A DNA stretch of 28,146 bases from a virus. Both the position numbers and the translations under genes were made by a program. The notes below the pieces were generated by a model. That model saw nothing but the letters and a program-made list of their open reading frames with translations, had not been told where the DNA came from and made no database searches. This document shows positions 1 to 8,257 of the stretch, piece after piece. How positions within the stretch are numbered: the stretch's first letter is position 1; each line of letters starts with the position of its first letter. The DNA lies in IMG/VR virus record IMGVR_UViG_3300046777_001020, positions 1 to 28,146 of that record. One strand, written 5' to 3'.

Positions 1-584
1 ATCTTGGGGGCAAGTGCTGGGCCTGCATCCTCTGGGAGGGGGGTAGGAGCCACGGAGGCGAGAGTTTCCTGGGCAGGTGGTGTCTCTACTACCCCTGGCG
101 CCATTTCGGGGCTTGGTGCTCCTTGGGCGGCCTCTTGTGCCTGGACCACTGCCGGGTTGTTCTGAGCGGTAAGCTTCTCTGTGAGGAAGCCCTGGACGGC
201 CTCCGGCGGAACCTTACCGCCAGTGGAGCGTGAGATGTTGGCGGCGAAGTCCAGCATCCGCTGGTTGAGGCCCATGACGTCACCGCCAGCAGCGATAGCG
301 TCACGGATCTCGCGGAACTTGGCTACGAAGGCTGGGTTGCCCTTGATGATCTTGGCAATCTCTGCCTCGAAGGCCATGTCTGCGGCTAGACCGGCGGACA
401 TTGGGGCGCCTGGAGCAACAGGTGTAGCCCCAGCTGCCGGAGCGGAGGGGGCGGCAGCAGCTGGGGTCTTAGGTGTCGTTGGCTTGGGCGCAGCCTTACC
501 TTCGATCTGCTGGTCGACAACCTGGTTGGCGTTCTTCAGACCTTCTTCGAGCTGCTTCTGGATCTTGGTGTTCTTCTTTGCCAT
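1..584 (-). CDS. Ala/Pro-rich hypothetical protein, N-terminal part (cut by window edge)
   Basis: An open frame of 194 complete codons starts at the ATG at 584 and runs off the left edge without a stop. A GGGAG ribosome site lies just upstream. The N-terminus (MAKKNTKIQKQLEEGLKNAN) is a charged helix, followed by an Ala/Pro-rich linker (about residues 30-62), a helical segment (about 65-145, with MLDFAANISRSTGGK) and a second Pro/Ala/Gln-rich stretch. No enzymatic motif is visible and the family is not recognised. It is the first gene of a leftward unit facing away from the early genes. The frame continues in phase into the C-terminal fragment at the right edge if the molecule is circular. 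A virion or scaffold-like role is possible but unsupported. Confidence 0.75.
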   Translation of the reverse strand, partial: MAKKNTKIQKQLEEGLKNANQVVDQQIEGKAAPKPTTPKTPAAAAPSAPAAGATPVAPGAPMSAGLAADMAFEAEIAKIIKGNPAFVAKFREIRDAIAAGGDVMGLNQRMLDFAANISRSTGGKVPPEAVQGFLTEKLTAQNNPAVVQAQEAAQGAPSPEMAPGVVETPPAQETLASVAPTPLPEDAGPALAPK

Positions 585-700
585 GTTCTCCCACCCTCTA
601 AGAGGGTATGACTTTCTATTTATAACCCGTAAAACCGTATTAGAGGGTATATCTATTACCCTCTATTTATATCCAATCCTGTCAAGGGTTTACCAACATT
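585..700. promoter_or_regulatory. Divergent control region with repeated TAGAGGGTA half-sites
   Basis: This AT-rich gap separates the leftward gene at 584 from the rightward early genes. It holds four copies of one half-site: ACCCTCTA (593-600), AGAGGGTA (601-608), TAGAGGGTA (641-649) and TACCCTCTA (657-665). They form two inverted pairs, one with adjacent arms and one with a 7-base spacer. TATAAATAGA (read on the minus strand) occurs twice, near 614-624 and 662-672. A TTGACA (minus strand, 680-685) shares its flank with the -35 of the promoter at 12436-12464, but no well-spaced -10 follows it. Divergent promoters under one DNA-binding regulator are inferred. The start sites are not identifiable by eye. 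Confidence 0.5.
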
Positions 701-743
701 AAGGTTCCTTATCAAATGGGTATGTCCAGTGCGGAGGTAGGGT

Positions 744-906
744 AATCCCCCAACGATACGGGGGATTTGGAAAGCCCTCACGGGACCCCCCTTTCCAAAT
801 CTCCCTCTTCGGGATAGGGTTGTTCCCTATCCCGTAAAACCCGCTCACGCGGGGAACCCCCCCCACGCTGGGGGTGGGTTCTGGTGTAGTGCGCCGACAT
901 GGCGCA
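744..906 (+). other. Run of consecutive hairpins in the leader before the first early gene
   Basis: This gene-free stretch is filled by stem-loops: AATCCCCC/GGGGGATT (744-751/760-767), ATTTGGAAAG/CTTTCCAAAT (765-774/791-800) enclosing CCC-TCAC-GGG, CGGGATAGGG/CCCTATCCCG (810-819/825-834, loop TTGTT), CCCGC-TCAC-GCGGG (840-853), CCCCC-ACGCT-GGGGG (860-874) and TGCGCC-GACAT-GGCGCA (890-906). The first two stems share bases and are alternatives. The last ends against the AAGGAGG of the gene at 919. None has a U-tract, so they are not ordinary terminators. A structured 5' leader or small RNA is inferred. Confidence 0.6.
810..839 (+). repeat. Leader stem-loop element, copy 1
   Basis: A perfect 10-bp stem CGGGATAGGG/CCCTATCCCG with pentaloop TTGTT is followed by TAAAA. 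It belongs to the repeated stem, pentaloop and CGTARAA family found before most of the first early genes. Confidence 0.75.
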
Positions 907-918
907 AGGAGGTAGGTC

Positions 919-999
919 ATGTGCGAGGAGTGCCACATCGTTAACACGGACTGGTATCAGTGCCAGTGCGATAACGTGAACGGTGGACTAGAAGACTGA
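919..999 (+). CDS. Tiny cysteine-rich (zinc-binding-like) protein, 26 aa
   Basis: The ATG at 919 follows AAGGAGG with 6-base spacing, and the frame ends at TGA 997-999. The product has a CxxC (MCEECHIV) and a CxC (YQCQCDN), a plausible single metal-binding knuckle. It is the first gene after the structured leader, and its stop abuts the stem of the next leader element. The strong ribosome site, the hairpin TGCGCC/GGCGCA directly before it and the Cys pattern shared with several neighbours support a real gene despite its size. Function is unknown. Small phage zinc proteins often bind host proteins or nucleic acid, but nothing here shows which. Confidence 0.55.
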   Translation: MCEECHIVNTDWYQCQCDNVNGGLED

Positions 1000-1027
1000 G
1001 GTGGGGGATGTTCCCTCACCCGTAGAA
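1000..1027 (+). repeat. Leader stem-loop element, copy 2
   Basis: GGTGGGGG (1000-1007), loop ATGTT, CCCTCACC (1013-1020), then CGTAGAA. The 8-bp stem includes one G-U pair. It begins directly after the stop of the 26-aa gene and ends just before the GGGAGGTGAT ribosome site of the next one. Confidence 0.8.
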
Positions 1028-1040
1028 GGGAGGTGATGAG

Positions 1041-1118
1041 TTGAAGGATGCATTGGCCCTGGCAGCATTCCTGCTGGGCTGGTATCTCCTGCTAGTAGTT
1101 GCTAGCTACAAAGGTTAG
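1041..1118 (+). CDS. Tiny single-helix membrane protein, 25 aa (TTG start)
   Basis: A TTG at 1041 lies 7 bases after a strong GGAGG (1029-1033), and the frame ends at TAG 1116-1118. The product is almost entirely one hydrophobic helix (LALAAFLLGWYLLLVVASY) with a short charged start (KDA) and a Lys-Gly end. The leader element immediately before it and the near-perfect ribosome site argue for expression. An ATG at 1048 lies in another frame and gives a 15-codon peptide without membrane character, so TTG is preferred. The role is unknown: membrane targeting, superinfection exclusion or a small lysis accessory are possible. Confidence 0.5.
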   Translation: MKDALALAAFLLGWYLLLVVASYKG

Positions 1119-1119
1119 T

Positions 1120-1147
1120 GGATGGGGGATGTACCCTCACCGTAGAA
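1120..1147 (+). repeat. Leader stem-loop element, copy 3
   Basis: GGATGGGGG, loop ATGTA (1129-1133), CCCTCACC, then GTAGAA and the AAAGGAGGTG ribosome site. The stem has one A-C mismatch (1122/1140), the least regular of the compact copies. Confidence 0.7.
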
Positions 1148-1161
1148 AGGAGGTGAAATAG

Positions 1162-1431
1162 ATGCCACACTTTATGTGCACAGTGTGCCGCAGGCCACGG
1201 CCTGAGGACACGCAGTCCGGATGGGAGCTCGCAGGGCTCGGCTGGATCTGCGATTCCTGCGTACACAGCTACACGGCGGCAGCTCTGCGAGTAATCGCAG
1301 GCTTCCACACGTGCAGCAACTGCAGCGTGCGCGGTACCGATCTGGATGGTGGTTGGTTCAACCAGGAGAAGGATTGGTATTGCGATACCTGCACATATGA
1401 ACTCCATGGGCCTGCAGCAGGCAAGGAGTAA
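1162..1431 (+). CDS. Zinc-ribbon protein with four CxxC pairs, 89 aa
   Basis: The ATG at 1162 follows AAAGGAGGTG. The protein has four CxxC knuckles (CTVC near residue 6, CDSC near 31, CSNC near 51 and CDTC near 74), giving two likely zinc sites of the treble-clef or ribbon type. The linker has acidic and aromatic residues, and there is no helix-turn-helix or enzymatic motif. Two one-helix membrane peptides flank it. Zinc ribbons of this layout occur in DNA- or RNA-polymerase-binding phage proteins and in uncharacterised early proteins, and the sequence does not decide between them. Confidence 0.75.
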   Translation: MPHFMCTVCRRPRPEDTQSGWELAGLGWICDSCVHSYTAAALRVIAGFHTCSNCSVRGTDLDGGWFNQEKDWYCDTCTYELHGPAAGKE

Positions 1432-1434
1432 CAA

Positions 1435-1463
1435 GGTAGGGGATGTACCCTTACCGTAAGAAA
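1435..1463 (+). repeat. Leader stem-loop element, copy 4
   Basis: GGTAGGGG (1435-1442), loop ATGTA, CCCTTACC (1448-1455), then GTAAGAA and the AAAGGGGGTGAT ribosome site. The TA step of the left arm and TA of the right arm replace the TG/CA of copy 2, a compensated change. Confidence 0.8.
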
Positions 1464-1477
1464 GGGGGTGATAAAGT

Positions 1478-1582
1478 ATGGAGCTAGACGCATTCCTATG
1501 GACGATCATTGCATCGTTCATCGGTACCGTTATGGGTATCGTCGGCTTGGCCTTGCTGGACAAGGCCTATCGTATCTTCTGA
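1478..1582 (+). CDS. Small single-helix membrane protein, 34 aa
   Basis: The ATG at 1478 lies just after the AAAGGGGGTGAT ribosome site, with the stop TGA at 1580-1582 touching the next leader stem. One long hydrophobic helix (FLWTIIASFIGTVMGIVGLALL) is preceded by MELDA and followed by DKAYRIF, so the N-terminus probably faces out and the positive C-terminus in. With the 25-aa gene at 1041 this makes two tiny membrane proteins in one early cluster. No family is recognised. Roles in early takeover of the membrane or superinfection exclusion are only guesses. Confidence 0.55.
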   Translation: MELDAFLWTIIASFIGTVMGIVGLALLDKAYRIF

Positions 1583-1623
1583 GGATAGGGCTTATCCCTA
1601 TCCCGTAGAATGGGGGAGACCCC
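1583..1623 (+). repeat. Leader stem-loop element, copy 5, with a second GAGA-loop hairpin
   Basis: A perfect stem GGATAGGG/CCCTATCC (1583-1590/1596-1603, loop CTTAT) is followed by CGTAGAA (1604-1610). A second hairpin, GGGG-GAGA-CCCC (1612-1623), carries a GNRA-type loop. The GGAAGGAG ribosome site of the gene at 1637 follows directly. Confidence 0.8.
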
Positions 1624-1636
1624 GGAAGGAGACATC

Positions 1637-1975
1637 ATGCCTGTGGCATATGTCAAGCGTGCCCTGGTCCAGGGTGGTATGGACCACGAAGGTGCCCGTC
1701 AGGCACCGAAGGGCTTCAACGGCTCTTGGGACATCCGATATGATTCCAAGACCGGTGCGCCCATGCGCCTGTTCACGATTGAGGAGCGCTCAATCGATGA
1801 CGCAGGCAAGACCAAGGTGACCGGTTATTTCAACTGCGTCGCCAAGGGTGATCTGATGGCGCAGATCGATGCGCTTCAGTGGGCTGAGGTGGAGATCGTA
1901 GCTGAACTCCGCCACAACCGAGACACCAAATACCTCCAGTTCGAGGTGGTGAAGGTCTCTAAGGTAGAGGCCTAA
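1637..1975 (+). CDS. Early protein of unknown function, paralogue A, 112 aa
   Basis: The ATG at 1637 follows GGAAGGAG. An upstream in-frame ATG at 1610 lies inside the leader hairpin and is rejected. The protein aligns without gaps to the product at 2289-2627, with about 82 of 112 residues identical by eye. Shared blocks include APKGFNGSWDIRY, FTIEER, VTGYFNCVA and NRDTKYLQ. The C-terminal half has the alternating strands and FNxVA-type segment of OB-fold ssDNA-binding proteins, but this is a weak resemblance. Codon choice is richer in G/C third positions than in paralogue B. It has its own leader and a long 3' hairpin. No function can be assigned safely. Confidence 0.8.
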   Translation: MPVAYVKRALVQGGMDHEGARQAPKGFNGSWDIRYDSKTGAPMRLFTIEERSIDDAGKTKVTGYFNCVAKGDLMAQIDALQWAEVEIVAELRHNRDTKYLQFEVVKVSKVEA

Positions 1976-1981
1976 GCAACC

Positions 1982-2021
1982 CCAGGTAGGGTGAGGGGAG
2001 TAATCCCCTCACCTTATCTGG
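1982..2021 (+). other. Long 3' hairpin with GTAA tetraloop
   Basis: Bases 1982-1999 pair with 2004-2021 over 18 bp (two G-U pairs), closed by GTAA, a GNRA-class tetraloop. It starts 7 bases after the stop of paralogue A. There is no U-tract, so it is more likely a processing, stabilising or protein-binding structure than a classical terminator. The inner part (GGTGAGGGG/CCCCTCACC) resembles the leader stems. Confidence 0.7.
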
Positions 2022-2203
2022 ATCTGGGTACGCCCTTGCCCTGGCCCGTAAGACTGGGGCAAGCTTGCTCAACCTGGCGATTGCATCTCTAGCTTGAAAG
2101 ACTTGACGAATGCCCTGGATACGAGAGCATCCGCTCCGTGTCAAGCTTTGTCAAGTGATAAGGTAGCAATGGGGTCAAGCGTGGGGGTAGAGCATTACCC
2201 TTT
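2022..2203 (+). promoter_or_regulatory. Gene-free stretch with TTGAC/GTCAA half-site array
   Basis: This lies within the 313-base gap between the paralogues. It contains CTTGCCC/GGGCAAG (about 2036-2064) with CCCGTAAGA in the loop. It also has AGCTTGA (2091-2097) and ACTTGAC (2101-2107), matched in inverted orientation by TCAAGCT (2141-2147) and GTCAAGT (2150-2156), plus a further GTCAAGC at 2174-2180. The inverted pairs cross rather than nest, which fits protein half-sites or a pseudoknot better than one hairpin. No ORF of substance is present. Operator, origin or small RNA are all possible. Confidence 0.4.
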
Positions 2204-2274
2204 GGGTGGGGGTGGATCCCTCGCCCGTAGAAAATCCTGCCCAATGGCAGGCTAGTTTAGTCCCGCTTAGCGGG
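2204..2274 (+). repeat. Leader stem-loop element, copy 6, with two extra hairpins
   Basis: GGGTGGGGG/CCCTCGCCC (2204-2212/2218-2226, loop TGGAT, two G-U pairs) is followed by GTAGAA. Then come CCTGCC-CAAT-GGCAGG (2236-2251) and CCCGC-TTA-GCGGG (2262-2274), directly before the GGAAGGAG ribosome site of the gene at 2289. Confidence 0.8.
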
Positions 2275-2288
2275 GGAAGGAGAAGCAA

Positions 2289-2627
2289 ATGCCAACAGCA
2301 TTTGTTAAGCGTGCTCTCATTCAGGGAGCAATGGATCATGAGGGTGCTAAGCAAGCACCCAAAGGCTTCAACGGAAGCTGGGATATCCGATACAACTCCA
2401 AGACTGGAGACAAGTTGAGGATCTTCACAATCGAAGAGCGCACCTCAGATGAGGCAGGCAAGCTCAAGGTTACAGGCTACTTCAACTGCGTAGCTTCAGG
2501 CGAGATCATGGAAGCTATCGAAGCAGCTCAATGGACTGAGGTCAGCCTAGTAACTGAACTCAAGTTCAATCGGGATACCAAGTACCTTCAGCTGGAGGTA
2601 GTAAAGGTTATCCCAGTAGAGGCATAA
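2289..2627 (+). CDS. Early protein of unknown function, paralogue B, 112 aa
   Basis: The ATG at 2289 lies after GGAAGGAG and a three-hairpin leader. The product is a gap-free paralogue of the protein at 1637-1975. Differences are mostly conservative (V/I, D/E, L/I) and cluster at residues 41-45, 52-59 and 70-93. Synonymous sites are heavily changed: this copy prefers A- and T-ending codons such as GCA, ACA and GTT, like the genes that follow it. A weak OB-fold resemblance in the second half applies here too. A long hairpin with a GNRA-class loop follows its stop, as it does for paralogue A. Confidence 0.8.
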   Translation: MPTAFVKRALIQGAMDHEGAKQAPKGFNGSWDIRYNSKTGDKLRIFTIEERTSDEAGKLKVTGYFNCVASGEIMEAIEAAQWTEVSLVTELKFNRDTKYLQLEVVKVIPVEA

Positions 2628-2655
2628 GGTTCCATTAGGAACCGTGCATTAACCG

Positions 2656-2693
2656 GATAAGTGGCATCCCGCGCAAGCGGGGTGCCACTTATC
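2656..2693 (+). other. Long 3' hairpin with GCAA tetraloop
   Basis: GATAAGTGGCATCCCGC (2656-2672) pairs with 2677-2693 over 17 bp (one G-U), closed by GCAA, a GNRA-class tetraloop. A smaller hairpin GGTTCC-ATTA-GGAACC lies just before it. CCAGG/CCTGG around CTTGAACAA lies just after it and shares CAACCTGGCGA with the sequence at about 2070-2080 downstream of paralogue A. Confidence 0.75.
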
Positions 2694-2742
2694 TCCAATC
2701 CCAGGCTTGAACAACCTGGCGAAGATGATAAGGAGATGACAA

Positions 2743-2922
2743 GTGAACTGCCCATGGTGTGACCAGCCTAGCGTAATGGGAATGCAGGGATTCTGCTCGA
2801 AGGAATGCTTAGATGAAGCAGGCTATGAGTACGAGAAGTACCTCGATAAGTTCAATGACTATATGGCAGGCTATCCAGTAACATTCGAGAAGATCAAGCG
2901 TAAGAAGCAGGAGGAACAATGA
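2743..2922 (+). CDS. Small zinc-finger-like protein, 59 aa (GTG start)
   Basis: A GTG at 2743 follows AAGGAGATGACAA, and the frame ends at TGA 2920-2922. The N-terminal 22 residues carry CPWC and FCSKEC, a CxxC...CxxxC zinc knuckle. The remainder is a charged helix (EYEKYLDKFNDYMAGY) ending in a basic tail (KIKRKKQEEQ). It overlaps the next start by 4 bases (ATGA), so the two are translationally coupled. The cysteine pattern is similar to small HNH-adjacent or ribosome-associated zinc knuckles, but no catalytic residues are present. Function is unknown. Confidence 0.7.
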   Translation: MNCPWCDQPSVMGMQGFCSKECLDEAGYEYEKYLDKFNDYMAGYPVTFEKIKRKKQEEQ

Positions 2923-3143
2923 TCTGCCAGGCCATGACCAAAGGTAGACTATGCACATATGATGGTATCCGTACTATCAGGGGTAAGAAGCTACTATGCA
3001 TTGTACATATCGACCAGTTCTTTAAGGGTGAACAGATTAAGTGGGCGCCCAAGCGCCTACTAGCCTGGGAGATTGAGCGCCGCGCAGCGGCGGCAATCGA
3101 GCGGAAGATACTCAACGATATCAACGCTGAGTACTACCGCTAA
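2919..3143 (+). CDS. Hypothetical early protein, 74 aa
   Basis: The ATG at 2919 overlaps the previous stop, and a CAGGAGGAA ribosome site sits inside the preceding gene. The product starts MICQAMTKGRLCTYDGIRT and has four cysteines near its start (C3, C12, C27 among them). A basic middle is followed by an amphipathic, Ala-rich helix (EIERRAAAAIERKILNDI). The spacing of Cys and His (CIVHIDQF) could hold one metal ion. No family is recognised. It is the last gene before a gap with two hairpins. Confidence 0.65.
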   Translation: MICQAMTKGRLCTYDGIRTIRGKKLLCIVHIDQFFKGEQIKWAPKRLLAWEIERRAAAAIERKILNDINAEYYR

Positions 3144-3148
3144 CGAGA

Positions 3149-3180
3149 AGGGGTGGGGTAGCTCAGGCTACCCCATTCCT
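3149..3180 (+). other. Intergenic hairpin GGGGTAGC-TCAG-GCTACCCC
   Basis: A perfect 8-bp core stem (3155-3162/3167-3174) extends outward to about 3149/3180 through a T-A, two G-T and further pairs. It begins 6 bases after the stop at 3143 and has no U-tract, so it is probably a 3' end or processing hairpin for the upstream plus-strand genes. Confidence 0.6.
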
Positions 3181-3183
3181 CTC

Positions 3184-3218
3184 AAAAAAACCGCTTGCCA
3201 AACTTGGCGAGAGCGGTT
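3184..3218 (-). terminator. Rho-independent-type terminator facing left
   Basis: Read on the minus strand, a GC-rich stem formed by 3218-3205 and 3200-3189 (loop AGTT, a small bulge on one arm) is followed by seven Ts (complement of A 3184-3190). That is a classical terminator layout for leftward transcription. It lies inside the rightward early cluster, where no minus-strand gene is seen. On the plus strand the tail is only GGTTCGTATCTT, so rightward function would be weak. Confidence 0.55.
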
Positions 3219-3227
3219 CGTATCTTG

Positions 3228-3273
3228 GGGGTGGGGTGTTCCCTCTCCCGTAATAGAAGCTGCCTCATGGCAG
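3228..3273 (+). repeat. Leader stem-loop element, copy 7, with a second hairpin
   Basis: GGGGTGGGG/CCCTCTCCC (3228-3236/3241-3249, loop TGTT, one mismatch and G-U pairs) is followed by GTAATAGAA. CTGCC-TCAT-GGCAG (3260-3273) comes next, close to the CCTGCC-CAAT-GGCAGG of copy 6. The AAAGGAG ribosome site follows. Confidence 0.7.
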
Positions 3274-3287
3274 AAAGGAGCAAGCAA

Positions 3288-3698
3288 ATGGAAGGTGAAA
3301 TGGATAGGGTCAAGGTAGACCTAAGCTTTGGGTTCAACAAGGCTGATGCAGATGAGGCATTGCAGATCCTGATCTCAGGATTCTATATGCTCAAGTCTTT
3401 CAACTCAGATCGAGTACGATTCCGGGAGTCATTCCCTGAAGTGTTCAAGACGGGCGAAGAAAACTTGATCATGCTTGGTGCAAGTCACGAGGAAGCAGTT
3501 GATGCTACCTACCAGGCACTTGAACAGTACTTCGATCTGCTCAGCAAGATGGTCTATATGCTAGGCTATGAGCTGGCATCCGAGATGAAGGCACCATTCC
3601 CAGAGGAAAAGGAGCTCACTCAACACCGTCAGGTATCAGACCTAGATAAAGAGGAGGTGATGAATGAACTAAACCGCATCATGAATATCAATAACTAA
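3288..3698 (+). CDS. Hypothetical acidic helical protein, 136 aa
   Basis: The start at ATG 3288 follows AAAGGAG. An upstream in-frame ATG at 3195 lies in the terminator and leader and is rejected. The product (MEGEMDRVKVDLSFGFNKADADE...) looks mainly helical, with a hydrophobic patch FDLLSKMVYMLGYELA about two thirds along and an acidic C-terminus. No motif is recognised. It begins a tight group (3709, 3935, 4374) with spacings of 10 bases or overlaps of 8, so these are probably one mRNA under one leader. Confidence 0.75.
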   Translation: MEGEMDRVKVDLSFGFNKADADEALQILISGFYMLKSFNSDRVRFRESFPEVFKTGEENLIMLGASHEEAVDATYQALEQYFDLLSKMVYMLGYELASEMKAPFPEEKELTQHRQVSDLDKEEVMNELNRIMNINN

Positions 3699-3708
3699 AG
3701 GAGGTACA

Positions 3709-3942
3709 ATGGATTACGATGACAATCAGGAAAAGAATATCTGTGATGGTACTAATCATCACGTAAAGATAGACTTTGTAACATTCATTGAACATCCAGA
3801 CGAGGTCTGGCGCAAGTGGGCAACCGGTACAGCTGAGAAGATAGCTCAAGAGATTAAGAACTATCGAGACAGCAAGGCCCCAAATGTGGATATGTTCATT
3901 GACTATTGCTGTGAAGCATGCAAGGAGGCAAATCATGAGTGA
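3709..3942 (+). CDS. Hypothetical early protein, 77 aa
   Basis: The ATG at 3709 follows AAAGGAGGTACA, 10 bases after the previous stop. The N-terminus is very acidic (MDYDDNQEKN), then comes a strand (VKIDFVTFIEHPDEVWRKW) and a helical part ending in CCEACKEANHE. Three cysteines and a histidine lie within the last 12 residues and could form a metal site. It overlaps the next gene by 8 bases. The family is not recognised. Confidence 0.7.
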   Translation: MDYDDNQEKNICDGTNHHVKIDFVTFIEHPDEVWRKWATGTAEKIAQEIKNYRDSKAPNVDMFIDYCCEACKEANHE

Positions 3943-4381
3943 TATGCACACTCTAAAGGAGACTATTGAAAGCGCTATCAGTCGAGCTGAGTCCGCTGCA
4001 TGGGATGCAGAGCAGGCAGCAGACAATGCAGGCGATGCTAGAGATAGCATTCAGAATGTTGAGAGCATACTCAATGATGTACTCAATGACATCGATGGCC
4101 TTATTGGATTCGATAAGGACGCATTCGATATCGCAGTGAGTAATGTAAAGCCTATCATTAACCTGCTCAAGTTCTATCTTGAGCGAGTTGAAGAGGCTGC
4201 ATCCAAGAACCTAAAGTATGAACCACGTTATAGCATGTTGGTTAGTGCAATCAACCTTGTTACAACTGGGTACCAGGAGATTGGATGGGATGAAGGATAC
4301 ACAATCGAGAGCGACTACATCGATGGTCAGTATTGCATTGTGTTTAAGAAAGTAAAGCAGGAGGAGAATAACAATGGCTAA
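3935..4381 (+). CDS. Hypothetical helical (coiled-coil) protein, 148 aa
   Basis: The ATG at 3935 follows AGGAGGCAAATC. An earlier in-frame ATG at 3884 lies deep inside the preceding gene and is less likely. The first 60 residues (TLKETIESAISRAESAAWDAEQAADNA and onward) form a heptad-like acidic coiled coil. A second helical part and a short strand-rich end (YIDGQYCIVFKKVK) follow. The stop overlaps the next ATG by 8 bases. No enzymatic motif is seen, and a structural or protein-binding role is more likely than catalysis. Confidence 0.7.
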   Translation: MSDMHTLKETIESAISRAESAAWDAEQAADNAGDARDSIQNVESILNDVLNDIDGLIGFDKDAFDIAVSNVKPIINLLKFYLERVEEAASKNLKYEPRYSMLVSAINLVTTGYQEIGWDEGYTIESDYIDGQYCIVFKKVKQEENNNG

Positions 4382-4823
4382 GACAACCGATAACAAGTGT
4401 GGTGCACCAAAGCTTAAGGAACTCCCAGCTGAGTTCAACCAGCAGGTAAGCATCGAAGTACCAAGCGCATCTATTATTGGCTTGATCATGCAGGCATCAC
4501 TGCCTGAGCTGGCCAAGCGTGTTGCCAAGGGCAATAGCTATAGCAACAGTGTCTCTGGTAATATCAAGGCACTGAACATTGCTACAGCTCTTGACATGAA
4601 GGTAACGGATATCAATGATGCATGGGATGGTTACCATGGATTCAATACAGTTCTAAGCGATGAGGGATTGCTGCGCGAGTGGCGAACTCAGAAGCCAGGC
4701 TGTGATTACACTGAGCGGGCAGACACTGCCGATCTGTATGAATCCACAGTAGCCGAGGTGCACATCACCTTCAGCAAGAAGTTGAAGGACAAGAAGTTCT
4801 TGGCATCAAAGGGTGTCAAGTAA
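4374..4823 (+). CDS. Hypothetical early protein, 149 aa
   Basis: The ATG at 4374 follows a GGAGGAG inside the previous gene. The product begins MAKTTDNKCGAPKLKEL, has a hydrophobic helix near residues 30-50 (SASIIGLIMQASLPELAKRV) and an aromatic, acidic middle (DAWDGYHGFNT). It ends in a lysine-rich tail (SKKLKDKKFLASKGVK). The family is not recognised. It is the last gene of the coupled set that starts at 3288, and a hairpin gap follows. Confidence 0.7.
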   Translation: MAKTTDNKCGAPKLKELPAEFNQQVSIEVPSASIIGLIMQASLPELAKRVAKGNSYSNSVSGNIKALNIATALDMKVTDINDAWDGYHGFNTVLSDEGLLREWRTQKPGCDYTERADTADLYESTVAEVHITFSKKLKDKKFLASKGVK

Positions 4824-4840
4824 TAGATAAGTAGGGTGCA

Positions 4841-4878
4841 GCCGGATGGGTAGAGGTATGGTTCACCACCCATCCGGC
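4841..4878 (+). other. Intergenic hairpin GCCGGATGGGT/ACCCATCCGGC
   Basis: A perfect 11-bp stem (4841-4851/4868-4878) has a 16-base loop. It lies midway between genes and is not followed by a U-tract or by CGTAGAA, so it differs from the leader family. The AGGAGG ribosome site of the gene at 4901 follows about 13 bases later. Confidence 0.65.
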
Positions 4879-4900
4879 ACACGCTACAATAGGAGGAACT

Positions 4901-5257
4901 ATGTGCAGAGAATACAATGGCTGGGCCAACTACGAAACGTGGAACATTGCTCTATGGATTGGAGAGGTTGATGGACTTGGCGATATGATTCACGAGCAGG
5001 CAATGCTCGAAGTCAAAGATGCATTCGATGACATCGAAGATGAGTTCGACCATCACGCAGCAACGTGGTCATTGGCTAAGTACCTTGAAGAACTATGCCA
5101 TGAGATGTTTGACTATGGCACAGAAGACCTTAAAGGTCCGGTAGCAGATGCAATCGGTTCTTACTATGCACAGGTTGTATGGTATGACATTGCAAGACAT
5201 TACATTGACGAAGCAGCACGCGAATCTGATATCAATCCAGCAGCAATCATAGTATAG
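4901..5257 (+). CDS. Phage protein with NGWxNYETW signature, 118 aa
   Basis: The ATG at 4901 follows AGGAGGAACT. The N-terminus carries YNGWANYETWNIALWI, a signature I know from a widespread family of uncharacterised phage proteins (probably the DUF7249 group, from memory). The rest is acidic and aromatic, with His pairs (DHHAATW), and probably helical. The role of the family is unknown. It opens a second tight early group (4901, 5266, 5876, 6001, 6288) with short gaps or overlaps. Confidence 0.8.
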   Translation: MCREYNGWANYETWNIALWIGEVDGLGDMIHEQAMLEVKDAFDDIEDEFDHHAATWSLAKYLEELCHEMFDYGTEDLKGPVADAIGSYYAQVVWYDIARHYIDEAARESDINPAAIIV

Positions 5258-5265
5258 GAGGCAGC

Positions 5266-5883
5266 ATGTATAAAGCAGAAGCATTGCAGTCCGGTGAAGG
5301 ACTATACGGTATCAAGTGGGCAGTCGAACAGGACTACCACTACGATATGGATCGTGAGTTCCTAATCGTAGCTACACGTGGCACAGGTAGGCACATTAGT
5401 ATCGATGACGTATGCGATAGCACCGATGAGTTCGATGCCTTCCTCAAGTCACCAACCATTGCATACGCGCAGCCACTGTACATGCTAGTTCACAGCGGAG
5501 TACGCGTCAGCCTTGGCGGATACAATGACCCATGGGATAGTGGTCAGTGCGGCTTCGCATGCCTAACGCAGAAGACAGTCGAAGACTTCGGCCTCAAGCC
5601 AGAAGAGTACGAGCAGTTCCTCACTGCGCTAGTAGATGAGTACGATGCCAAGCTGATTGGTAACGTGGTACAGTACCGCATCTGGCAGGATAAGAAGTGC
5701 GAGTCATGCGGTCACGCAGAGGATCAGTTCCTTGATTCATGCGGAGGGTTTGTACTCACACGTGGATGGGGGAATATGGATGACTTTGTAGATACTAACG
5801 TTCTGCCACAAGTCAAGTACTTCGAAGAGCAGTTCGCTCAAGCTGAGCACCAAGCAGAGAAGGGAGTCAAGTCCGATGATTAG
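5266..5883 (+). CDS. Phage protein with HSGV...DPWDSGQ signature, 205 aa
   Basis: The ATG at 5266 follows AGGAGGCAGC, 8 bases after the previous stop. The central segment (YMLVHSGVRVSLGGYNDPWDSGQ, about residues 71-93) matches a motif that recurs in uncharacterised phage early proteins. A CxxC with His (CESCGHAEDQF) near residue 145 and an aromatic GFVLTRGW follow, then an acidic C-terminal helix. No biochemical role is known to me. The last 8 bases overlap the next ORF. Confidence 0.75.
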   Translation: MYKAEALQSGEGLYGIKWAVEQDYHYDMDREFLIVATRGTGRHISIDDVCDSTDEFDAFLKSPTIAYAQPLYMLVHSGVRVSLGGYNDPWDSGQCGFACLTQKTVEDFGLKPEEYEQFLTALVDEYDAKLIGNVVQYRIWQDKKCESCGHAEDQFLDSCGGFVLTRGWGNMDDFVDTNVLPQVKYFEEQFAQAEHQAEKGVKSDD

Positions 5884-6001
5884 TCTTCAGACTTTAGGTA
5901 TGGCCAAATGCCCTGAGTGCGACAGGGTATTCGACCTTGATGTAGAGCAGCAAGCAGAGGAGTGGTACTATGGCCACGACTGCTTCATAGAGGAGGAGTG
6001 A
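5876..6001 (+). CDS. Small zinc-knuckle protein, 41 aa
   Basis: The frame opens at ATG 5876, overlapping the previous gene by 8 bases, and a second in-frame ATG is at 5900. It ends at TGA 5999-6001. The core is MAKCPECDRVFDLDVEQQ followed by EEWYYGHDCFIEEE: a CxxC and a HDC that could complete a Cys3His site. The stop shares its last base with the next ATG, consistent with coupling. The 5876 start has only a distant GGGAG and the 5900 start has none clear, so the start is uncertain. Confidence 0.55.
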   Translation: MISLQTLGMAKCPECDRVFDLDVEQQAEEWYYGHDCFIEEE

Positions 6002-6279
6002 TGGTAAACTTTGACGCAATGCGCCAGCTCGAGGAAGAGACTCGAGCTAAGCATCTCGATGCCGAGTCAGCATACATCATGAAAGAGATGATCGAACCGC
6101 TGATCGGATGTACAGTAGTGAGTGGGTTGGTAGATAGCACAGACCTAGATGGCACGCCATTGTTTAGCAACCCATTCCCTACCATCACATTCCGCAAGCC
6201 AGATGGTACACTCATCGTCATGCTGGTATCAGCGGACGACGAGTGCAACGAAGGCGGACGCTTGATCCAAATAATCTAG
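6001..6279 (+). CDS. Hypothetical early protein, 92 aa
   Basis: The ATG at 6001 follows a strong AGGAGGAG within the preceding gene. An in-frame ATG at 5962 lies upstream of that site and is rejected. The protein starts with a charged helix (FDAMRQLEEETRAKHLDAE), then a strand-rich part with TITFRKPDGTLIVMLVSADDE, a small beta-sheet fold seen in DUF-type phage proteins. No catalytic motif is recognised. Confidence 0.7.
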   Translation: MVNFDAMRQLEEETRAKHLDAESAYIMKEMIEPLIGCTVVSGLVDSTDLDGTPLFSNPFPTITFRKPDGTLIVMLVSADDECNEGGRLIQII

Positions 6280-6287
6280 GAGGTAGC

Positions 6288-6656
6288 ATGAAGATCTTAG
6301 ACATAGAGCTAAGCGACCTAGAGGTAGTGAACATCTACACTACAGCGCTCGAAGGTGGCATTGGGTATTGGGCAGTGTGCGATGAGTACAGGTGGCAATA
6401 CCTATATGAGGATTGGGAGAATGACATTGTCAAGCCACTCGATCCAGACCAAGTGCTAGTAGTTCTATCTGATACCGAAGAGACAGACTTCAAGAACGAA
6501 AAGCTAACTCCAGCTAAGATCAGAGCTGGTGTCAAGCTGCTCATCGAGAAGTACCCTCACAAGTATCAGATCCTCGACAACCAGTTCCATGTCGACGCAG
6601 ATGGAGCTGACTTAGTAGTACAGCTGGGACTATTCGGTGAGGTAGTATACGGCTGA
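6288..6656 (+). CDS. Conserved-looking phage protein, 122 aa
   Basis: The ATG at 6288 follows AGGAGGTAGC. An in-frame start at 6243 overlaps the preceding gene and lacks a ribosome site. The N-terminal part has LEVVNIYTTALEGGIGYWAVCDEY, a pattern (GGI.YWA) I recognise from uncharacterised phage early proteins. The C-terminal half is a helical segment (KIRAGVKLLIEKYPHKYQIL) and an acidic end. It is the last rightward gene, with the terminator beginning 8 bases after its stop. Confidence 0.75.
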   Translation: MKILDIELSDLEVVNIYTTALEGGIGYWAVCDEYRWQYLYEDWENDIVKPLDPDQVLVVLSDTEETDFKNEKLTPAKIRAGVKLLIEKYPHKYQILDNQFHVDADGADLVVQLGLFGEVVYG

Positions 6657-6663
6657 CAACAAA

Positions 6664-6707
6664 GCCCTAACAGTGGATTCCTTCCCCACTGTTAGGGCAT
6701 TTTTTTT
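6664..6707 (+). terminator. Strong rho-independent terminator between convergent genes
   Basis: GCCCTAACAGTGG (6664-6676) pairs perfectly with 6686-6698 over 13 bp, loop ATTCCTTCC, followed by A and eight Ts (6700-6707). It ends the rightward early transcript. On the minus strand the tail is TTTGTT, so it may also stop the leftward transcript from 6742 onward. Confidence 0.95.
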
Positions 6708-6741
6708 CAAGCGCACCCACCCGTAGCACTTGGCGAAAGCG

Positions 6742-6978
6742 TTAGTTTAACAAATCAGTCTTCCGTTTTCCCCTAGCCGGTGGCTTTGGTGTGTCGGACG
6801 GAGGGTTGATTCCTTTTGCCCGGAGCACAGAGTTCAACAGGGCGAAGGCAGCATCCCATCCGTCGTCGTACCCTTCGTCGTACGCATCTTGCAATAGCTG
6901 CGTCATCTTATGTTCGCTGTGTTCGCATACTGCGACTGGACATTTGCACTCTATCTCCATGAATACTTTCTTTGACAT
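6742..6978 (-). CDS. Small Cys-rich protein downstream of DnaB, 78 aa
   Basis: The ATG at 6978 starts 1 base after the DnaB stop. Its AGGGGG ribosome site lies in the last codons of dnaB, so the two are probably coupled. Cysteines (CKCPVAVCEH) near residues 11-19 form a likely metal site. A helical middle (DAYDEGYDDGWDAAFALL) and a Pro/basic tail (KPPARGKRKTDLLN) follow. It is the last gene of the leftward transcript before the terminator. The family is not recognised. Confidence 0.7.
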   Translation of the reverse strand: MSKKVFMEIECKCPVAVCEHSEHKMTQLLQDAYDEGYDDGWDAAFALLNSVLRAKGINPPSDTPKPPARGKRKTDLLN

Positions 6979-6979
6979 G

Positions 6980-8257
6980 TTACCCCCTGAAACTTGCGGT
7001 CGACTTGACGAACTCTAGATCGCATACACCGGTCGGACCATTGCGGTGCTTGGCAATCTTGCAGCTGACTACCTCAGACTGCTTGGTGAAGTCGGGTTGT
7101 TCCTTGCGCCAGAGCATGAGCACCATGTCTGCATCCTGCTCGATGGCACCGGAGTCACGCAAGTCGGAGAGCCTAGGCTCACCGCTGTCACGGTACTCAC
7201 TCATGCGACTCAGCTGGGACAGCGCAATGATCGGCACGTCTAGCTCACGGGCGATACCCTTGAGCGCACGGCTAATGTCGGCCACCTCGTTGACCCTGTT
7301 CTGATCCTTGCCACTACGGTCAGGGACCATGAGCTGCAGGTAATCGACGATGATCAGATCAACGCCACGCTCCGATGCAATCTTGCGGCACTTCGAACGC
7401 ATGACTGATGGGCTAGCTGTTGGTGAGTCGTCGACGTAGATTCCCATCTTAGACACTGTCTCAGCCCACTCCTCTAGCTCGCTCATCTGCACCAAGTCAA
7501 TGCCACCATTACGGATAGCAGCGAGCGGGATGCCGGACGCTGACGAGAGGATGCGTGCACCCACCTGCTCAGCGCTCATCTCGATGGAGAAGATAGCCAC
7601 CTTCTTGCCAGTCGCAGCTGCTGACAACGCCATGCTAGTAGCAAGCGCCGTCTTGCCCACGCTAGGACGAGCAGCCAGGATGATGAGGTCGCTCTTCTGC
7701 CAGCCCCCAGTGATGGCATCGATCTGGCCAATGCCAGAGCGTACGCCAGGGCGCAGCCCGTCGATGACGATGGACTTGACTCGCCCCTTCGTCATGTTCA
7801 TAAGGTCGAGTGCATCGTTCCACCGGGCAGCACGTCGCTTGTTGCCGATGCGGAAGAGGATCTTCTCCGCCTCGTCGATGGCAGTAGCTGGGTCTTCCGG
7901 CATCTTATATGCGCTCTCGACAATCTCAGTGCCAGCCTTCACCAGCCCACGCAACACAGCCATGCGCTCGACGATGTCGTAGTAGCTCTTCGCATGGATG
8001 GATGTTGGCACTGAGTCTGATAGCTCAGCCAGGTACAGCATTGGCACGGACTTGCCAGCCAGCGCATCCGATACCGTCACGATGTCGACAGCAGAACCGG
8101 ACGTGTGTACGTCTACGATGGCACGCGCAATCTTCACATGGCGTGGGTCGTAGAAGTCGTCTGGGTTCAGCTCGAAGTCAGAGAGCACTGCCTGGTCGAT
8201 GAGGATCGACCCTAGCAGTGAGCGCTCAGCCTCAATAGAGTGCGGGGTTTGATGCAT
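6980..8257 (-). CDS. dnaB: DnaB-type replicative DNA helicase
   Basis: The product is 425 aa with the two-domain layout of DnaB. An N-terminal helical domain (about 1-150, opening with HSIEAERSLLGSIL) precedes a RecA-like motor. Walker A is ARPSVGKT (196-203), Walker B is LIIVDYLQLM (301-310) and the H4-type segment is LSDLRDSGAIEQDAD (363-377). The arginine-finger region is KHRNGPTG (403-410). All catalytic residues are present and the length is slightly below the family's usual 450. It unwinds the phage fork as a hexamer. AAGGAGGTAAT precedes the start. No primase or polymerase is encoded in the window, so host enzymes or genes outside it must serve. Confidence 0.97.
   Translation of the reverse strand: MHQTPHSIEAERSLLGSILIDQAVLSDFELNPDDFYDPRHVKIARAIVDVHTSGSAVDIVTVSDALAGKSVPMLYLAELSDSVPTSIHAKSYYDIVERMAVLRGLVKAGTEIVESAYKMPEDPATAIDEAEKILFRIGNKRRAARWNDALDLMNMTKGRVKSIVIDGLRPGVRSGIGQIDAITGGWQKSDLIILAARPSVGKTALATSMALSAAATGKKVAIFSIEMSAEQVGARILSSASGIPLAAIRNGGIDLVQMSELEEWAETVSKMGIYVDDSPTASPSVMRSKCRKIASERGVDLIIVDYLQLMVPDRSGKDQNRVNEVADISRALKGIARELDVPIIALSQLSRMSEYRDSGEPRLSDLRDSGAIEQDADMVLMLWRKEQPDFTKQSEVVSCKIAKHRNGPTGVCDLEFVKSTASFRG

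Follow-up and report, generated by a model that had tools for sequence, protein, structure and literature searches.

Phage replication proteins that repress translation have been described in several systems. The single-stranded DNA-binding proteins (SSBs) gp32 of phages T4 and RB69 repress their own mRNA via leader structures that have diverged in sequence, each of the two proteins also represses the other's target, and gp5 of M13 represses the mRNA of gene 2 (PMC535899). The T4 protein gp43 binds a hairpin located about 40 nucleotides (nt) upstream of its start (PMC3014915). Used here by analogy, these cases show that there are precedents for phage replication proteins as translational repressors. 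Here we describe a family of leader hairpins in front of the early genes of the virus record IMGVR_UViG_3300046777_001020 of IMG/VR; the window below is this entire record, 28,146 bases. One covarying element, most simply an RNA, stands before up to seven early genes, and among relatives it is replaced wholesale, together with two proteins, while the intervening genes are kept.

Repeated elements at gene starts have been described as well. In cluster K mycobacteriophages, the start-associated sequence (SAS) is a 13-bp repeat, GGGATAGGAGCCC, located 3-7 bp from the start codon and containing the core of the Shine-Dalgarno (SD) sequence; the extended SAS (ESAS) consists of 17-bp imperfect inverted repeats with a spacer of 4-13 bp, whose arms do not support RNA pairing, and for which a DNA-level operator or promoter part was proposed (PMC3203893). 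In T4-like phages, the PeSL cassettes combine an early promoter and a stem-loop terminator and mediate shuffling (they are mentioned in PMC4503421).

Leader hairpins and their arrangement

The - strand of the window carries the genes for the capsid, the tail, the exonuclease subunit of a DNA polymerase and DnaB, and the + strand carries a series of small early genes, named here by their first position. Neither a DNA search nor a search with the 4374 protein finds a near relative among cultured phages, but relatives of the window phage are found in IMG/VR. A preliminary description had placed hairpins before seven early genes, and all seven are present on the + strand:

810..839, + strand: leader hairpin 1, CGGGATAGGG-TTGTT-CCCTATCCCG with a CGTAAAA tail, before gene 919; 10 pairs, 0 mismatches
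1000..1027, + strand: leader hairpin 2, GGTGGGGG-ATGTT-CCCTCACC with CGTAGAA, between the TGA of gene 919, which it follows directly, and gene 1041
1121..1147, + strand: leader hairpin 3, imperfect, GATGGGGG-ATGTA-CCCTCAC, 6/7 pairs, before gene 1162; its CGTAGAA tail runs into the extended SD sequence AGAAAGGAGGTGA
1435..1462, + strand: leader hairpin 4, GGTAGGGG-ATGTA-CCCTTACC followed by CGTAAGAA, before gene 1478
1583..1610, + strand: leader hairpin 5, GGATAGGG-CTTAT-CCCTATCC with CGTAGAA, 8/8 pairs, directly behind the TGA of gene 1478 and before the SSB-like gene 1637
2204..2232, + strand: leader hairpin 6, GGGTGGGGG-TGGAT-CCCTCGCCC with CGTAGAA, before the SSB-like gene 2289
3227..3255, + strand: leader hairpin 7, 7/8 pairs with one U-U mismatch, CGTAATA, before gene 3288
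2021..2054, + strand: degenerate eighth copy, CCCTGGCCCGTAAGAC, 15.3 bits, E 1.5, with poor pairing (5/8)

The stem measures 8-9 bp (10 with a C-G extension), the loop has 5 bases in nearly all copies and commonly reads NNGTT or ATGTA, the 3' arm starts with an invariant CCCT, and a CGTARAA tail follows. The loop, the CCCT and the CGTA are conserved more than pairing requires. Two stems depart from the first description: the copy before 1162 has one mismatch and a stem of 7 pairs, and the copy before 3288 has the single U-U. In predicted folds in context, the stems dominate at 5 of the 7 copies. The degenerate eighth copy is not at a gene start or a ribosome site, and yet it is present in the type A relatives, that is to say those which carry the same form of the element as the window.

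The copies occur in two arrangements. In the compact one, the tail leads straight into the SD sequence, which begins 5-8 nt past the stem and often reads AGAAAGGAGGTGAT; several copies sit 0-3 nt behind an upstream stop codon. In the extended one (genes 919, 1637, 2289 and 3288), one or two extra hairpins come before the SD sequence:

891..905, + strand: second hairpin of gene 919, GCGCC-GACAT-GGCGC, ahead of the ribosome site
1612..1623, + strand: second hairpin of gene 1637, GGGG-GAGA-CCCC, ahead of the ribosome site; in relatives its sequence before the SSB-like gene differs but its hairpin form stays
2236..2251, + strand: second hairpin of gene 2289, CCTGCC-CAAT-GGCAGG
2262-2274, + strand: third hairpin of gene 2289, CCCGC-TTAG-CGGG, between the second hairpin and the gene
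3260..3273, + strand: second hairpin of gene 3288, CTGCC-TCAT-GGCAG, ahead of the ribosome site and kept in type A relatives

The second hairpin had been placed just before the ribosome site of genes 919, 2289 and 3288; this is so for 919 and 3288, whereas at 2289 the hairpin at 2262-2274 stands in between.

The short distance to the SD sequence at compact sites, together with the proximity of stop codons, means that neither a promoter nor a terminator function is needed. Intrinsic terminators were rejected, since no T-run is present and CGTARAA or a near variant follows the hairpin in all type A copies. A TARAAT-like -10 promoter element in the tail was also rejected, the ribosome site being within a few bases in compact copies, and so was a CsrA-type site, a GGA loop being present only in the 2289-type leader. 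No Rfam family reaches its gathering score; the best match in positions 1-8000 has 21.6 bits.

The hairpins could simply help to set up translation, by insulating a strong ribosome site or by spacing re-initiation after the upstream stop. The compact copies fit this idea, since they join a hairpin behind a stop codon to AGAAAGGAGGTGAT, which matches the 3' end of 16S rRNA over 12-14 nt. However, no gene ends directly upstream of the copies before 919, 2289 and 3288 (at 812, 2205 and 3228), which are separated from the SD sequence by 26-73 nt, and both the conservation of sequence and the swapping described below are left unexplained, which makes this explanation highly improbable.

Pairing and covariation of the arms

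Pairing was assessed by a non-circular test, in which copies are picked by their 3' half alone (CCCTNN, 0-2 bases, CGTA) and the 5' side is then compared at a fixed loop of 5 bases. The pattern has 12 matches in the window, 7 of which pair at every position or at every position except one; those 7 are exactly the leader copies, and in 200 dinucleotide-shuffled windows, the expected number is 0.015 on average, with a maximum of 1. None of the 25 matches in 785 kb of DNA from unrelated phages pairs. When the selection was run on both strands of 23 loci, nearly all leader copies of the early strand paired at 7-8 of 8 positions, and the intragenic or opposite-strand matches at 0-5, except for mirror images of the leader palindromes.

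The arms change together. The covariation score is 0.387 for the window's seven copies only, versus 0.126 +/- 0.045 in shuffles, and 0.252 for the alignment of 29 type A copies, versus 0.113 +/- 0.019; in each case, 0 of 500 shuffles reach the score. In the latter alignment, 90.9% of the cells are paired, versus 81.9 +/- 1.5% in shuffles (again 0/500), and sliding either arm by any offset abolishes the signal. The two middle pairs of the stem vary freely, with five and six standard pair types. That they vary and yet stay complementary indicates that a hairpin is required, which a DNA dyad would not need. Simple hairpins account for the covariation.

This bears on the idea that a phage DNA-binding protein reads the palindrome, as an operator or a promoter part, the hairpin being incidental. 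A palindromic consensus that is specific to a lineage, with few sites, in the early region only, would suit such a protein, and the consensus of ESAS likewise differs between subclusters (PMC3203893). On the other hand, the free but complementary middle positions are unlike the behavior of ESAS arms, and at compact sites, where the SD sequence lies 5-8 nt behind the stem, a -10 element in the tail would have no space for its start site. We therefore regard a DNA operator as distinctly unlikely, and favor a folded strand, most simply RNA, as the cause of the covariation. An excess of G-U pairs over A-C mismatches was considered as proof of RNA and rejected, since it comes from a single column, in which an invariant T faces A or G, and vanishes when this column is dropped, the two counts then being 8 and 9. 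The choice between RNA and a hairpin of single-stranded DNA is therefore argued from placement, not from wobble: RNA is preferred because the copies lie between the stop codon and the ribosome site of co-directional genes.

A covariance model built from the seven window copies recovers the leader copies of L009, L020 and L011, the copy of L031 reaching only 15.5 bits. Outside type A, its best matches are type B leader copies in L024, L029 and L036 (16.8-17 bits, singly not significant). With this model, no coding copies are found in relatives, and on the opposite strand of type A genomes the matches above 17 bits are only weaker mirror images of the same palindromes. The preliminary description had proposed an RNA element rather than a DNA operator, and this reading is supported by the covarying stems, by the placement from stop codon to ribosome site within an operon and by the lack of coding equivalents.

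Element types and the genes that change with them

Relatives carry different element sequences at the same positions, with the layout retained:

Type A: window, L018, L009, L010, L020, L021, L011, L031
Type B, GGTCTGCCCCCCGAAG, one copy reading GGGGGCGG-ATGTA-CTGCCCCC: L119, L121, L105, L106, L107
Type C, GGTCTGCCCCCCGTAG: L109, L123, L038
Type D, GGTTCTCCCAAAG..GTAGCAT: L114

In L116, a 16-base repeat stands before an SSB-like open reading frame (ORF) and before a later early gene; it is possibly a fifth type, E. The idea that L115-L118 lack both the SSB and the element was rejected, since L116 has a diverged SSB-like ORF (recognized by eye) and its own two-copy repeat. The matches to the pattern in other viral contigs (L019, L022, L023) are isolated and single and were taken as chance; in a scan of bacterial genomes for host or prophage copies, the two matches resemble homologous coding sequence and have no leader context. 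In type C (L109 2672, L123 2681, L038 2944, reverse strand), a long hairpin, GGTCTGCCCCCCATAGGGGGAGACC, has the first element copy as its 5' arm; the leader thus contains a strand complementary to the element itself, which is possibly a decoy or an attenuator.

For types A to D, the dispersed copies in one genome are of a single type. This is what would be expected if gene conversion or template switching at quasi-palindromes homogenized the copies and made their arms complementary, with no reader involved, and short inverted repeats are indeed prone to template switching. However, the copies of one genome are not near-identical, their stems varying while the loop and tail motifs hold, and such concerted evolution would predict neither the strict limitation to gene starts nor the co-segregation with gene 3709, which lies beyond the conserved gene 3288. 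We consider it very unlikely.

The genes that matter here are the following:

1637..1975, + strand: SSB/PriB-like protein of 112 amino acids (aa) with a predicted OB fold (AlphaFold2 pLDDT 87.6)
2289..2627, + strand: second SSB-like gene, a paralogue 73% identical to 1637
3709..3942, + strand: 77-aa Cys/His protein with conserved C12, H17, C67, C68 and C71, which tracks the element type

The model of the 1637 protein is a small beta-barrel whose best Foldseek matches are bacterial SSB and PriB, plus annotated phage SSBs; sequence profile searches miss this protein. Type A genomes have two SSB-like paralogues and types B-D have one. In types A-D, a copy of the element is found directly before the SSB-like gene. 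The C-H-CC-C pattern of the 77-aa protein could, from its sequence, be a zinc site.

A comparison of the window with L119 (type B) reveals what has been exchanged. The two share 592-753 (94% identity), 2723-3103 (84%), 3304-3703 (79.5%) and 4345 onward (87%), and differ by exchange at 754-2722, at 3104-3303, which is the leader of 3288, and in the 3709 gene. Hairpin 7 is therefore replaced by a type B copy between conserved genes. L031, a type A genome about equally distant in the shared genes, aligns with the window unbroken over 2727-3942, element included. The trees agree with this: type A as a single clade is rejected by the tree of the 3288 protein (p-AU 4e-5) and by that of the 4374 protein (2.5e-5; this tree includes the very long branch of L011), whereas in the SSB-like protein tree type A is one clade (99/99) and 3 changes, the fewest possible for four types, suffice, as they also do in the 3709-protein tree.

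We scanned 29 ORFs of the early and replication genes, and among those that can be aligned across types, only 1637/2289 and 3709 track the element type; 919, 1041 and 1162 have counterparts only within type A, so that their tracking cannot be assessed. The identity of 1637/2289 is 64-100% within type A and 25-33% to types B and C, and that of 3709 is 55-95% within type A and 31-34% to B, C and D. L011 is particularly informative: its 3709 homologue is 70% identical to that of the window, although its homologues of 4374, 3288 and 4901 are only 32-34% identical.

This joint replacement also bears on a role in mRNA stability or processing, in which the stems protect the 5' ends of cistrons, or signal cleavage within the tail, and no phage protein is dedicated to reading them. 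A hairpin does stand at the start of every cistron of the leftmost operon, directly behind stop codons, and the unpaired purines of the tail, flanked by two hairpins, could plausibly be cut by a nuclease. But such a role needs structure only, and yet the conservation of loop, CCCT and CGTA goes further than pairing requires, and the dispersed copies change sequence jointly with two proteins; stems of 8-9 bp are also short for RNase III. This role is unlikely.

Other features of the early region are worth recording. Between the SSB gene and the transcription unit that follows it, the leader (window 2060-2200, L119 3600-3780, L114 3400-3560, L109 3180-3400) keeps the short blocks ACCTGGCGA/ACCTGACGA, GGATACGA, TGATAAGG and GTATTACC at similar spacing in several lineages, and is probably a promoter and regulatory region. 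The divergent control region between a - strand gene and the early genes (window 593-674) contains a ACCCTCTAAGAGGGTAT palindrome, together with a diverged repeat at 634-650, as well as a TATTACCCTCTATTTATA block that recurs, is kept in distant relatives, and looks like repressor operators or a replication origin. The protein of window 3935-4381 is hypervariable (38% identity in L018, where the adjoining genes are at 92-96%). A RadC/JAB-like protein, recognized by eye from its HNHPSGD motif, is encoded among the early genes of L009 (3931-4410) and L114 (4086-4568); none was noticed among the early genes of the window.

A putative translational operator compared with known systems

We give about an even chance to the proposal that the leader hairpins are translational operators read by a phage protein of the matching lineage. 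We infer that the folded strand is the mRNA and that a protein binds it, as well as the identity of this reader and the sign of its effect. Each early transcript would carry the hairpin with its CGTARAA tail, in some cases a second hairpin, and then a strong ribosome site. An RNA-binding protein encoded by the phage, and of the same lineage, would recognize hairpin and tail at every copy in the genome and would adjust, most likely repress, translation of the leftmost early genes, its own included. An operator with its matching protein is the simplest account because it covers the conserved loop and tail, the covarying stem, the placement at ribosome sites, the single type per genome and the joint replacement with two proteins. 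The best candidate reader would be the SSB-like protein of 1637/2289, and the second the 77-aa protein of 3709. The preliminary description had left open a translational switch, an RNase site or a protein-binding hairpin; the swap of types together with two proteins favors an operator read by a protein, and its interpretation as a whole is partly supported.

More tentatively, the SSB-like protein, the 77-aa protein and all the leader hairpins may form a co-adapted set, a lineage-specific post-transcriptional regulon; this is possible, but we would not bet on it. The replication protein, when in excess over single-stranded DNA, would stop translation of the leftmost early genes, and, with hairpins readable only by the matching protein, recombining genomes would have to exchange the set whole.

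Several observations weigh against the operator proposal. With 30 nt of upstream sequence included, other local folds compete with the hairpins at 1121 and 1583 and are preferred to them, and at some sites in types B and C the stems are weaker or shifted in register. Only two copies define type E. The two proteins were chosen post hoc from about 29 genes, the model of the 77-aa protein is weak (pLDDT 74) with no structural relative, and part of the tracking signal is physical linkage within the swapped 754-2722 module. Gene 3709, however, lies beyond the conserved gene 3288, so that linkage alone is disfavored.

The natural swap argues for a reader that acts in trans and singles out two candidates for it, which makes the function of start-associated repeats testable. 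To our knowledge, the phage SSB operators known so far are single sites, and repeated start-associated elements elsewhere have no accepted mechanism.

As for the described repeats, the PeSL cassettes are similar in that stem-loops are repeated in early intergenic regions (PMC4503421), but here there is no T-run, compact sites leave no space for a promoter, and genomes that exchanged genes differ in their elements. The parallel with cluster K that had been drawn at the outset holds for placement, SAS and ESAS being repeats just upstream of the starts of non-structural genes, with a consensus that differs between subclusters; it fails for pairing, which ESAS arms do not support (PMC3203893). Here, the SD sequence is separate from the element and 3' of the tail, unlike in SAS, and, unlike in ESAS, an 8-9 bp stem with a fixed 5-base loop has arms that covary (0/500 shuffles).

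The T4 protein RegA is similar in that one regulator acts on many early mRNAs, but its sites are unstructured and A+U-rich (PMC3014915). In the T4 gp43 operator, too, a replication protein binds a hairpin that precedes a start; that site is single and the present one is repeated. With the gp32 operator, the element shares a leader that is structured ahead of the ribosome site, a placement that is kept while the leader sequences diverge, and a phage SSB, which here too is encoded downstream, by predicted fold only; the gp32 leader is a pseudoknot with an unstructured stretch before its own gene only, whereas here hairpins stand before up to seven genes. By analogy, and with no claim of family membership, the element would work most like an operator of the gp32 or gp43 kind multiplied over genes.

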